A stretch of 53,303 nt of DNA from Bacteroidota bacterium. Lineage in GTDB: Bacteria; Bacteroidota; Bacteroidia; NS11-12g; UBA955. Location of the stretch: the NCBI GenBank assembly GCA_024103355.1, contig JAGFIU010000001.1, positions 1 to 53,303 of the forward strand, in the 5' to 3' direction. Position numbers and translations under genes: made by a program. Under the pieces are notes generated by a model. The model did not search any database. It was not told where the DNA came from and saw only the letters and a list, made by a program, of their open reading frames with translations. The first letter of the stretch is position 1; each line of letters opens with the position of its first letter. Below are positions 22,287 to 25,645 of the stretch, in pieces.

Positions 22287-23510
22287 TTACTTTTTTTGAC
22301 CTGCCAGCATGATAATCAATGCTAAAGACAAAGCAGCAGTAACATAAAGCAGCATCAAATTAAAACTAGGCATAGCAATACCAAAAAAAGCCCCGAAAGA
22401 TTCCGTAAACAATATTGCTTCTGTGTACAATGTTGCAACAACGAAGAGATTTGTACCCCATTTTGATAATAGGTTTTCAGCATATTTAATCTGCAATTTT
22501 TCAATGAAGAAACCAAAAATAAAAAAACTGATTATACACAAGAATATTAAATGCAAAAATCCTATTACGACAGGTCTGAAATTGAAAACAAAGTCCATGA
22601 TAACAGGCTCTATTGACAATGATTGCATAAGTGTTTTGCCGACAAAAGAAAAGAATGCTATCAACCAAAGCAATTTTGTAATATAAGAAAGATGGCTCGA
22701 AATCTCCTTTTTTGATTGAAAAAAGAACTTAATCAACAACACAACGGCTATCAACTGAGCAATAATCGAAATATTGGCAGACAAATTCACCCAGTAGGCA
22801 TCGGTCAGTCCTATGATTGACAAGGCGTATCCAGGGAAAATACTAAATGCCAACAGCACAAAGAACTTGTAAATCAAGGCACTGTCAAAAGCAATATCTT
22901 TGCTGAAAAGCCAATGCAAAAACAGTGTAATAACAGCAAACGTAAACCATCCGTCATATTGAAAATGCAGATAAAAATACAAAGCACCATTCACAAACAA
23001 CGGTTCTGTCTTCCCGCTGGCAGAAAAATATGCCAAGAAATAAGGACCCAGAGACGAAATGACGAACGAAATTACTGCTATATAGGAGAAATATTTTACC
23101 AAAGGATTTACATCGGACTTGCGAATATCTTTGATAAAAATCACCGCAAACCAATAAAAAACAAAAGTTGCTATGGATGAAAATACAATAGAAGGAACCT
23201 TATAACCTTGCAGAATAAAAGTAATCAACATTCCATAGGAACTAAAATGCAATATCCAAAAAATCAAGGCATAAGAAATACTATTTTTCTTCTCTTCAGG
23301 CAGAAGATATACCACAAAGGCTGTCGAAAGTGCCATTGTCGCCCAAGCATAAAATACAAAATGTGAATGTGAATGTAATAAGAACTCTAAATTCAAAAAC
23401 GGAATCGGATAATTCATCAGGTACCTCATGGTAAGACCCATAAGTGAAGCAGTCATTAGATTAAATAGGCAGATTACCGCCCAATTATTTGGAATCCTCA
23501 TTCTTTCCAT
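22287..23510 (-). CDS. Polytopic His-rich membrane protein, heme-copper-oxidase-like (paralog B)
   Basis: 407 residues, about 12 hydrophobic helices, no signal peptide. It aligns almost without gaps to its upstream neighbour, so the pair is a tandem duplication. Conserved in both are the HxHxH of helix 2 (His46, His48, His50 in LLHSHSHFVF), His182 in FYLHFQYDGW, and Arg312 plus His320 in FRPVVIGFLHLIF. By eye the first two helices and the IGFLH segment resemble cbb3-type oxidase subunit I, where such His residues bind the low-spin heme. The double-His helix of the copper site is absent and the high-spin heme ligand position is Phe. Role unknown: a b-type cytochrome-like electron carrier is an inference. 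It begins 134 bases after its paralog ends. Confidence 0.6.
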   Translation of the reverse strand: MERMRIPNNWAVICLFNLMTASLMGLTMRYLMNYPIPFLNLEFLLHSHSHFVFYAWATMALSTAFVVYLLPEEKKNSISYALIFWILHFSSYGMLITFILQGYKVPSIVFSSIATFVFYWFAVIFIKDIRKSDVNPLVKYFSYIAVISFVISSLGPYFLAYFSASGKTEPLFVNGALYFYLHFQYDGWFTFAVITLFLHWLFSKDIAFDSALIYKFFVLLAFSIFPGYALSIIGLTDAYWVNLSANISIIAQLIAVVLLIKFFFQSKKEISSHLSYITKLLWLIAFFSFVGKTLMQSLSIEPVIMDFVFNFRPVVIGFLHLIFLCIISFFIFGFFIEKLQIKYAENLLSKWGTNLFVVATLYTEAILFTESFGAFFGIAMPSFNLMLLYVTAALSLALIIMLAGQKK

Positions 23511-23644
23511 TTCACAAAAGCAGAAAGAGACTCTGAGTATTGAAACTGACTCTCTTTACTAAAACATGACTGCAAATTAAGCGCTTATTTTGAACGATTT
23601 TAAATAGAGAAATAAAATTCATCATCCATATTTACTTTGACTCC

Positions 23645-24886
23645 TTAAAATTTGGAATATTTTCGTATTTGTCCGATTACAAAAATTAGCAAAGAGGCTG
23701 ACATTACAACAGTGATGTAATAGATAATCAGAGATATATGGGGCACATGAAAATAAAAATAATTTCCGGCAGCTTGGAGAAATAAAAGTAACTCACTGAT
23801 AATTGAAAAAACAAAGAATGCAATAATTCCACTTCTTGCAGGTGAAGAAGATTTGAAGCTAATTTTCTCTTTTTCAATCATATACCCAAAGAGGAAGAAA
23901 CTAACAAAACATATAAAAACCAAATGGAGGTAACCTATAACAAGTGGTCTAAGGCTAAATGCTACTATTGCGAGGCTAGGTTGAAGAGACGCAATTTGCA
24001 TACCTGTCTTTGCAATTATTGATAAGAAAGCAATTCCCCAAAGAAACTTAGAAAATAATGAAAGACTATTTGATATATCAACTCTGGCTCTATAAATCAT
24101 TTTGGTCAATATAACGACTCCAATAACCTGTGTAATAATGGCAAAATAAGAACATATATAAACCCATAATTCGTCAACATATCCGATAAGCGATAAACAA
24201 TATCCGGGAATCAAACCTACTGAAAACAAAATAAAAACTTTCAATAAACTCGGATGGCTGTATTTTATCTTATTCGTTGTAAGCCATCGGAAGAAGAGGG
24301 TAATGATTGCGAAGGAAAACCAACCATTATACTGAAAGTGCAAATAAAAATACATCGCTCCCCTTGTTACTAAAGGTGTCGATGGTCCATACAGAGAGAA
24401 AGCAGCTGAGTAATACTCTCCTATTGAGGCTATTATATATGAGATTATGGAAACAACTGCAAAATATTTCACAACTCTATGCGCTTCAATTCTTTTTAAA
24501 TCAATCATGAACTGAATTGCAAACCAATAGAAAACAACTTGGGCAGCTGTCATAAACCCAATCGAGACTACAGAGTATCCTTGTAAAGAAAAGCTAATCA
24601 AAACTCCCCAAGATAGTATAACAGAGAGCCAGAATATAGCGAAATAAGCAAATGTCCTTTTAATATTATTTGGAAGAATAAGGCTGATAAATGCTGTCAT
24701 TAGGGTGAGGGTTGCCCATCCTTGAAAAACAAAGTGTGAATGAGCGTGTAACAAATTTGCCTGAGTTATTCCAGGTAACGGGAAATTAATTTTATACCTC
24801 ATAATAACCCCCAGGATTGAGGCAACAAAAAGATTAAAAAGGCAGATAATACCCCAATAATTTGGTAATTTAAAAAGTCTGGTCAT
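23645..24886 (-). CDS. Polytopic His-rich membrane protein, heme-copper-oxidase-like (paralog A)
   Basis: 413 residues from the ATG giving MTRLFKLPNYWGIICLFNL, chosen by alignment to the paralog; an in-frame ATG at 24916 adds ten residues without counterpart. About 12 helices. Conserved residues are His47, His49 and His51 (LLHAHSHFVFQGW), His183 (FYLHFQYNGW), Arg313 and His321 (LRPLVIGYLHLVF). The same remote likeness to heme-copper oxidase subunit I applies, with Tyr at the high-spin heme position. It is divergent from a cytochrome c lipoprotein gene across a 267-base region holding an FNR-type palindrome; no clear -7 box was found on its own side. Function is unassigned. Confidence 0.6.
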   Translation of the reverse strand: MTRLFKLPNYWGIICLFNLFVASILGVIMRYKINFPLPGITQANLLHAHSHFVFQGWATLTLMTAFISLILPNNIKRTFAYFAIFWLSVILSWGVLISFSLQGYSVVSIGFMTAAQVVFYWFAIQFMIDLKRIEAHRVVKYFAVVSIISYIIASIGEYYSAAFSLYGPSTPLVTRGAMYFYLHFQYNGWFSFAIITLFFRWLTTNKIKYSHPSLLKVFILFSVGLIPGYCLSLIGYVDELWVYICSYFAIITQVIGVVILTKMIYRARVDISNSLSLFSKFLWGIAFLSIIAKTGMQIASLQPSLAIVAFSLRPLVIGYLHLVFICFVSFFLFGYMIEKEKISFKSSSPARSGIIAFFVFSIISELLLFLQAAGNYFYFHVPHISLIIYYITVVMSASLLIFVIGQIRKYSKF

Positions 24887-25091
24887 GAATCGAATTGTAT
24901 TGATAAACATTAGCAATCGAATGAATAAACCAATATCCTACAATATAATCTATGCAATCAAACAAATGAGATAGAAAACTTCGAATAATGTCGGGATTCA
25001 TTGTTGAATTTCTAATTATCAAAAGTGTTATTAAGAGATGATTGATTATTCAATTCAGGCTTGCAAAACAAGGATAAAAAAAATTAAGTTC

Positions 25092-25109
25092 AAATGACTT
25101 ATGTCATTT
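25092..25109. promoter_or_regulatory. CRP/FNR-type operator upstream of cytochrome c
   Basis: Perfect inverted repeat AAATGAC-TTAT-GTCATTT. The TGA-N6-TCA geometry is that of CRP/FNR-family sites. Its centre is 33 bases before the centre of the -7 box, so about 40-41 bases upstream of the predicted transcription start, the class II activator position. No -33 TTG is present, as expected for an activator-dependent promoter. Confidence 0.65.
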
Positions 25110-25129: not shown

Positions 25130-25137
25130 TATCTTTG
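25130..25137 (+). promoter_or_regulatory. -7 promoter box of the cytochrome c gene
   Basis: TATCTTTG followed by CG, an exact TAnnTTTG match and identical to the purE box. It ends 16 bases before the ATG at 25154. Confidence 0.65.
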
Positions 25138-25153
25138 CGACTAATAAAACTAG

Positions 25154-25645
25154 ATGAAAATGAAAAAATTATTTTTAATTGGATTTGCAGCATTATTATA
25201 TGCATGCGGAGGCTCTCAAACAACAAACACTGAAGAACCCACAGAACAAACAACACCTGAAACTACTGAAACTCCTGAAACAAAAAAAGATGTAAGTGAA
25301 TATGATCCTCACAGAGGGGAAGGGAAATTTAAAGACATTGAATTAGGAGCCCTTGATCCGGCAAAAGCTGAGAAGGGAAAAGCAATTTATGAAATGAAAT
25401 GTTTTAGCTGTCACAAACTTACTGATGAGCGATTGGTAGGACCAGGGTGGCATGGAGTTACTCAAAGAAGAACTCCTGCTTGGCTATTGAATTTTATAAC
25501 AAATCCTGACCCAATGCTTGACAAAGACCCTGAATTACAAGCTCAATTGGAAATCTGTTTAGTGAGAATGCCTAATCAAAATGTTGCAGACGAAGAAGCA
25601 TTTGCACTTGTAGAATTTATGAGACAAAACGATGGAGTAAAATAA
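25154..25645 (+). CDS. Lipoprotein c-type cytochrome
   Basis: 163 residues with a lipoprotein signal (lipobox LYAC, Cys18) and a Thr/Glu/Pro-rich tether (about 21-48), then a single-heme cytochrome c domain: CFSCH at 83-87 and axial Met139 in VRMPNQ. It would be anchored in a membrane facing the periplasm and carry electrons. From memory, the segments GPGWHGVTQRRTPAW and LNFITNPDPML resemble small cytochromes found near clade II nitrous-oxide reductase genes in this phylum, but no nosZ is in the window. It is divergent from the two His-rich membrane proteins, with an FNR-type operator and a strong -7 box upstream and a terminator downstream. Confidence 0.93.
   Translation: MKMKKLFLIGFAALLYACGGSQTTNTEEPTEQTTPETTETPETKKDVSEYDPHRGEGKFKDIELGALDPAKAEKGKAIYEMKCFSCHKLTDERLVGPGWHGVTQRRTPAWLLNFITNPDPMLDKDPELQAQLEICLVRMPNQNVADEEAFALVEFMRQNDGVK

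Follow-up and report, generated by a model that had tools for sequence, protein, structure and literature searches.

Two adjacent genes on the minus strand of the window (the whole 53,303-nucleotide stretch analysed here) encode membrane proteins that we term A and B, and a cytochrome c gene is transcribed divergently from the first of them. The features of the locus are as follows.

22287–23510, minus strand: protein A, 407 residues, second gene of the tandem pair, like heme-copper oxidases (HCO) and with 12 transmembrane helices (open reading frame, predicted structure, fold match)
23645–24886, minus strand: protein B, 413 residues from its ATG, first gene of the tandem pair, likewise HCO-like with 12 transmembrane helices (open reading frame, family alignment, structure, fold match)
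25094–25107, strand not applicable: palindrome ATGACTTATGTCAT (ATGAC-TTAT-GTCAT), predicted Crp/Fnr-type operator (motif match, sequence)
25130–25137, plus strand: TATCTTTG, candidate -7 element of the cytochrome c gene, matching the Bacteroidota consensus (read from sequence)
25154–25645, plus strand: monoheme cytochrome c lipoprotein, 163 residues, CxxCH, divergent from B (Pfam Cytochrom_C, E 5.3e-9)

Both reading frames are real and have the coordinates and lengths given in a first-pass annotation of the same DNA; that of B stays open upstream of its ATG, up to a TTG at 24916. The two proteins are 43–44% identical over their full length, and the five histidines that the annotation had listed as common to them lie in register: H46, H48 and H50 (HSHSH), H182 and H320 in A, and H47, H49 and H51 (HAHSH), H183 and H321 in B. 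In a tree, A, B and a Crocinitomicaceae relative (locus L036) form a clade with support 100/100, from which we conclude that the pair arose by a local, lineage-specific tandem duplication. Two divergent family copies also occur at L202 and at L203, on both flanks of the nos cluster and about 10 kb apart; these are probably old paralogues and not tandem copies.

As single sequences, A and B match no family in Pfam or NCBIfam (including no COX1 match in Pfam), and neither phmmer nor a profile search of PDB sequences gives a match. Their AlphaFold2 models have pLDDT 93.1 and pTM 0.92 (A) and pLDDT 92.2 and pTM 0.92 (B). Foldseek with the model of A retrieves only HCO subunit I down to an E value of ~2e-3, the next, unrelated match standing at E 0.3, and with B it likewise retrieves HCO subunit I chains alone before the jump to noise. 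By VIA, A aligns with CcoN (3mk7) at Z 34.7 over 402 of its 407 residues and with cNOR (4xyd) at Z 34.0, and B reaches Z 34.5 against CcoN (8smr, 409 residues) and 33.5 against cNOR; mitochondrial-type oxidases score lower, at Z of about 27–32. The predicted structures thus settle the fold of both proteins as the 12-helix subunit I fold of the HCO superfamily (PF00115 superfamily), bearing out the resemblance proposed in the first-pass annotation and revealing no confident match to an unrelated fold, and they place the closest relatives in the cbb3/NOR branch. The structural alignment runs end to end, which led us to discard a circularly permuted register.

Homologues of A and B occur in 65 of 296 sampled Bacteroidota genomes, about a fifth, and we found no description of the family in open PMC text, a search confined to open-access articles. 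In a family alignment of 112 sequences from Bacteroidota genomes (residues numbered as in A), no sequence deviates at H48, H50, H182 or H320, and 101 have H46, so the histidine pattern read from the two window proteins is not a chance one. H48 and H320 are also invariant in the 111 sequences that make up the core family and a more distant subfamily. R29, K292, Q296 and R312 form a further invariant or near-invariant set. PF11070 (DUF2871) is matched weakly by 6 of 93 members (best E 0.005); this short family may be related to one third of the HCO fold.

At the level of sequence, the profile of the core family combined with the distant subfamily matches cNOR/CcoN with E 5.1e-8 over 351 columns (score 66.9). 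A reversed decoy gives E 0.089, 60 block-shuffled decoys score no higher than 30.2, and all decoys have E 0.005 or worse; the combined family is therefore homologous to HCO subunit I. The decisive score came from the combined profile only: hhalign with a single subfamily (the core against NorB, or the distant subfamily) gives weak scores, and the Pfam model PF00115 is matched weakly by 5 of 93 members (best E 0.0017) and missed by A and B individually.

This alignment relates the conserved residues to the metal sites of Rhizobium etli cNOR, whose ligand roles we take to be those given here. H48 pairs with H53 (low-spin heme, helix 2) and H320 with H328 (low-spin heme, helix 10), so that A keeps both low-spin heme ligand positions, the helix-2 ligand being the middle histidine of HxHxH, and a heme would be expected to occupy them. 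H182 pairs with H186 (FeB histidine, helix 6) and residue 186, an Asp in A and an Asn in most members, with E190 (FeB glutamate). L230 and S231 stand opposite H237 and H238 (the FeB histidine pair of helix 7), and Phe318 stands opposite H326 (high-spin heme ligand); the corresponding residue of B is Tyr319, and the core family as a whole has Tyr in 81 of 93 members and Phe in 12, including A. By this alignment, then, A and B lack the proximal histidine of the high-spin heme and also the CuB/FeB ligand set of a catalytic O2 or NO reductase, having kept the helix-6 histidine and lost the helix-7 pair, two of the three FeB histidines. Because of these losses, the known mechanism of O2 or NO reduction would not be open to them. 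The first-pass annotation, which had compared the proteins with CcoN, is upheld by the computed alignment in its choice of the helix-2 and second helix-10 histidines as low-spin heme ligands, in reading Phe/Tyr at the position of the high-spin heme ligand, and in the missing histidine pair of the copper site; that the helix-6 histidine is a former CuB/FeB ligand was absent from it. A second HCO-like family (C21, described below) had suggested H50, by analogy, for the low-spin ligand; we rejected this choice since the computed alignment places H48 there.

The distant subfamily shows a reciprocal pattern. H48, H50 and H320 are present in 18 of 18 sequences and H182 in 4 of 18, and a glutamate occupies the FeB glutamate position in 12 of 18. 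If both subfamilies go back to a NOR-like ancestor, such complementary remnants of its FeB site are to be expected.

H46 and H50 have no counterpart in the NOR/CcoN alignment. The invariant H50 and near-invariant H46 are not explained by one low-spin heme, which counts against the reading that we come to prefer below, and together with H182 they keep two others under consideration. One is an unconventional enzyme carrying out NO chemistry at another metal centre, such as a heme on H182 or Tyr318 or a metal on H46/H50. Retention of H182, the former FeB histidine, in 93 of 93 core members, the glutamate of the distant subfamily, the prevalence of Tyr at position 318 and the genomic linkage to NO genes (below) speak for such an enzyme; we consider it improbable, given that the helix-7 pair is gone, that A itself belongs to the Phe318 minority of the core and that most of the distant subfamily lacks the former FeB histidine. 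The other is an assembly factor, an inactive NOR or oxidase relative that would supply NosZ, NOR or another oxidase with heme or metal, with HxHxH as a transient metal site. It would give a role to the HxHxH that opens helix 2 and to K292, Q296, R29 and R312, which a heme site alone leaves unaccounted for, and family genes do sit among the nos maturation genes (nosD, nosL, ABC). However, 16 of the 65 family genomes have the protein and no NosZ was found in them, nos clusters already contain known maturation genes, and we know of no chaperone with an HCO fold; we think this role improbable. A related idea, to which we give a similarly small weight, is that this HCO subfamily rebuilt the O2/NO pocket into another metal or heme site (H50, H182, H46, Tyr/Phe318 and K292) and there performs or controls a step that is new in the metabolism of NO or N2O.

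The surroundings of the family genes were counted in 80 relative loci, some of them cut by contig ends. A member of a Crp/Fnr regulator cluster is found in 66 of 80, usually directly upstream and in the same direction, and a monoheme cytochrome c lipoprotein is divergent from the family gene in 58. Sec-dependent clade II NosZ follows downstream in 55 loci, and after it come a NosL-containing membrane protein (54) and NosD (51); in nos clusters the family genes are found among the maturation genes nosD, nosL and ABC. On the other side lie RIC in 25 loci and NorC/NorB-like genes in 12; RIC (RIC/YtfE) repairs iron-sulfur clusters damaged by NO. A different arrangement, Rrf2-qNOR-RIC-family gene without nos genes, is found in other genomes of the same class (L204, L205, L206 and L208), and qNOR is also near the family gene in G222 and G285. 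Across genomes, NosZ occurs in 49 of 65 with the family versus 49 of 231 without it (p 1.5e-15), and RIC in 59 of 65 versus 64 of 231 (p 9e-21), both p values being overstated because they ignore phylogeny. Physical adjacency stands independent of that bias: NosZ lies within 12 kb of the family gene in 34 of the 49 genomes having both, and 30 genomes have RIC no more than 5 kb away from it. Some family contexts lack NosZ, some qNOR and some the cytochrome c; common to all contexts is nitric oxide, in the form of NO/N2O reductases, RIC, and Crp/Fnr or Rrf2 regulators.

Within the window, only the cytochrome c and the operator adjoin A and B. The pair has no NO genes as neighbours; nosZ, RIC and Crp/Fnr genes of these families were not detected in the 53 kb, and the other scanned reading frames encode unrelated housekeeping, transport or repeat proteins. 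The window's cytochrome c is orthologous to the nosZ-adjacent cytochrome c of the relatives (an HMM match to the cluster found in 58 of 80 loci) and is likely a partner of A and B or a gene co-regulated with them. The operator motif ATGAY-N4-RTCAT is present in 39 of 57 equivalent intergenic regions, including that of the window (shuffled sequences: mean 0.2, maximum 2), and its single match within the window is the one at 25094–25107. The consensus of the Bacteroidota -7 element is TAnnTTTG; if TATCTTTG serves as such an element, the operator centre would lie near -41.5 of the cytochrome c start. We confine this spacing to the window, because few loci show a clear -7 element, and the same spacing recurs in few others. 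A looser form of the operator, WTGAYNNNNRTCAW, has 109 sites in a whole-genome scan versus 34 for the reversed pattern and is too unspecific to define a regulon.

ATGAY-N4-RTCAT is also found ~280 bp upstream of the cbb3 genes ccoNO of the window's own genome (L002:1151, G000:C23). Since the same motif precedes ccoN, its regulator could be a general, O2-responsive Fnr rather than an NO sensor. The same genome encodes NirK, two RIC matches and a NorC-NorB-like pair, and NosZ was not found in it; with this gene set the organism probably makes and handles NO. The frequent position of a Crp/Fnr gene directly upstream and in the same direction might suggest that the family protein itself senses NO, O2 or redox state at the membrane and passes a signal to this neighbour. 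A and B have no signalling domain or C-terminal extension, however, and the neighbouring regulator is missing beside many members and in the window, so that we regard sensing as very improbable.

A cytochrome c beside a protein that retains the low-spin heme ligand positions suggests an electron carrier: electrons would travel from menaquinol over a single low-spin heme b to the neighbouring cytochrome c and from there to NosZ or NOR, the carrier taking the place of the NosR/NosGH-type quinol dehydrogenases. The divergent cytochrome c gene is conserved in the relatives and in the window, it persists at L036 and L216, where the stretch examined contains no nosZ, and to our knowledge the electron donor to NosZ in Bacteroidota is not well defined. 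Nevertheless, no such cytochrome c was detected near the family gene in the Rrf2-qNOR-RIC clusters (L204, L205, L206 and L208), where qNOR draws directly on quinol, and this weakens the proposal; moreover, two-electron quinol oxidases do not usually have just one heme b, and the cytochrome c adjoins nosZ and could obtain its electrons from another complex. A carrier from menaquinol to cytochrome c, the main idea of the first-pass annotation, is the main rival to the reading that we prefer, and we judge it unlikely.

The preferred, if tentative, reading is that A and B are NOR/cbb3-derived low-spin heme b proteins of the nitric-oxide response with a role like that of NnrS. They would be degenerate subunits I of the NOR/cbb3 branch that keep a predicted low-spin heme b site (H48, H320); with Phe/Tyr318 in place of the high-spin heme ligand and without the helix-7 histidine pair, they would no longer catalyse O2 or NO reduction in the known way. 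Crp/Fnr- or Rrf2-type regulators would drive production of the family protein together with NO/N2O reductases and RIC, and this product, an inner-membrane protein carrying heme, would help the cell to tolerate NO, as NnrS does in Proteobacteria; the adjacent cytochrome c is perhaps its redox partner. Such a role fits at least as well as a carrier or sensor because some qNOR-RIC clusters have no detected cytochrome c. Of the first-pass interpretation, the HCO fold, the low-spin heme ligand pair and the ligand losses stand, and the quinol-to-cytochrome carrier or sensor that it proposed is a guess, one rival among several.

Few enzymes have been studied as thoroughly as the heme-copper oxidases, and the subfamilies known to us are defined by keeping the catalytic centre. 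If the reading is right, a family that lacks this centre and is encoded next to NO-defence genes and clade II nosZ would fill a gap in how N2O consumers handle NO and N2O. It offers a testable gene for two questions: what protects Bacteroidota from NO when NnrS is absent, and by which route clade II NosZ receives electrons when there is no NosR. The genomic context in NO and N2O metabolism, invisible from the window sequence alone, is what is new here, and the family probably consists of heme proteins with a supporting role in NO-defence and N2O-respiration clusters.

Compared with known systems, the family shares with NnrS (PF05940) a polytopic membrane protein of ~400 residues and an HAH motif early in the chain. 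NnrS belongs to NO-responsive regulons (PMC1274295), where it lies beside nirK/nor/dnrN, as at an R. etli locus. The comparison with NnrS that the first-pass annotation had proposed reveals no homology: hhalign of the family against 15 NnrS sequences gives E 0.42, the same as a reversed decoy (0.44), and A and B have no PF05940 match in Pfam. Membership in NnrS is therefore rejected despite the common HAH motif, and no NnrS match exceeds the cut-off in 118 Bacteroidota genomes; with NnrS scarce in the phylum and profile homology lacking, the link is one of analogy at most.

NOR (PF00115) has in common with A and B the 12-helix fold, the low-spin heme histidine pair, the helix-6 histidine and the company of NO-metabolism genes. 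A and B differ from it in having Phe/Tyr for the high-spin histidine and in lacking the helix-7 pair and an attached NorC-type subunit; the FeB glutamate position is Asn/Asp in the family and Glu in the distant subfamily. Pairs of NorB-like protein and NorC-like cytochrome c occur in the window's own genome (L005:1471-2781, G000:C31) and at L040, L055, L056, L057, L071, L072, L075, L088, L095, L099, L101 and L105. The NorB-like proteins of L005-type pairs keep the helix-7 pair and the high-spin histidine, lack the helix-6 FeB His/Glu and have H-x-M for H-x-H in helix 10, which marks another odd NOR variant. A further COX1-family protein of the same genome (L003:1261-2928, minus strand; G000:C1) reads GHFKG at the expected place of the helix-10 HxH.

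The cbb3 subunit CcoN (3mk7, 8smr) is the best structural match, end to end and with like low-spin heme ligand positions, yet it is only about 11% identical, and A and B are ~50 residues shorter and lack its active-site ligands as well as CcoO and CcoP. The C21 family (~430 residues; R. etli p42f RHE_RS29150, L100, L201) is HCO-like by profile (E 3e-7), is encoded beside NO genes and is related to the A/B family (profile E 8e-7). Its members were located as follows.

L100:8644-9936, minus strand; L201:4617-5882, minus strand; L222:16296-17648, plus strand: C21-type HCO-like proteins beside DUF2249, NnrS and nirK or qNOR genes

Unlike the A/B family, C21 has a histidine in helix 2, HxH in helix 6 and none at the helix-10 position, a ligand pattern that marks it as a different degenerate HCO.
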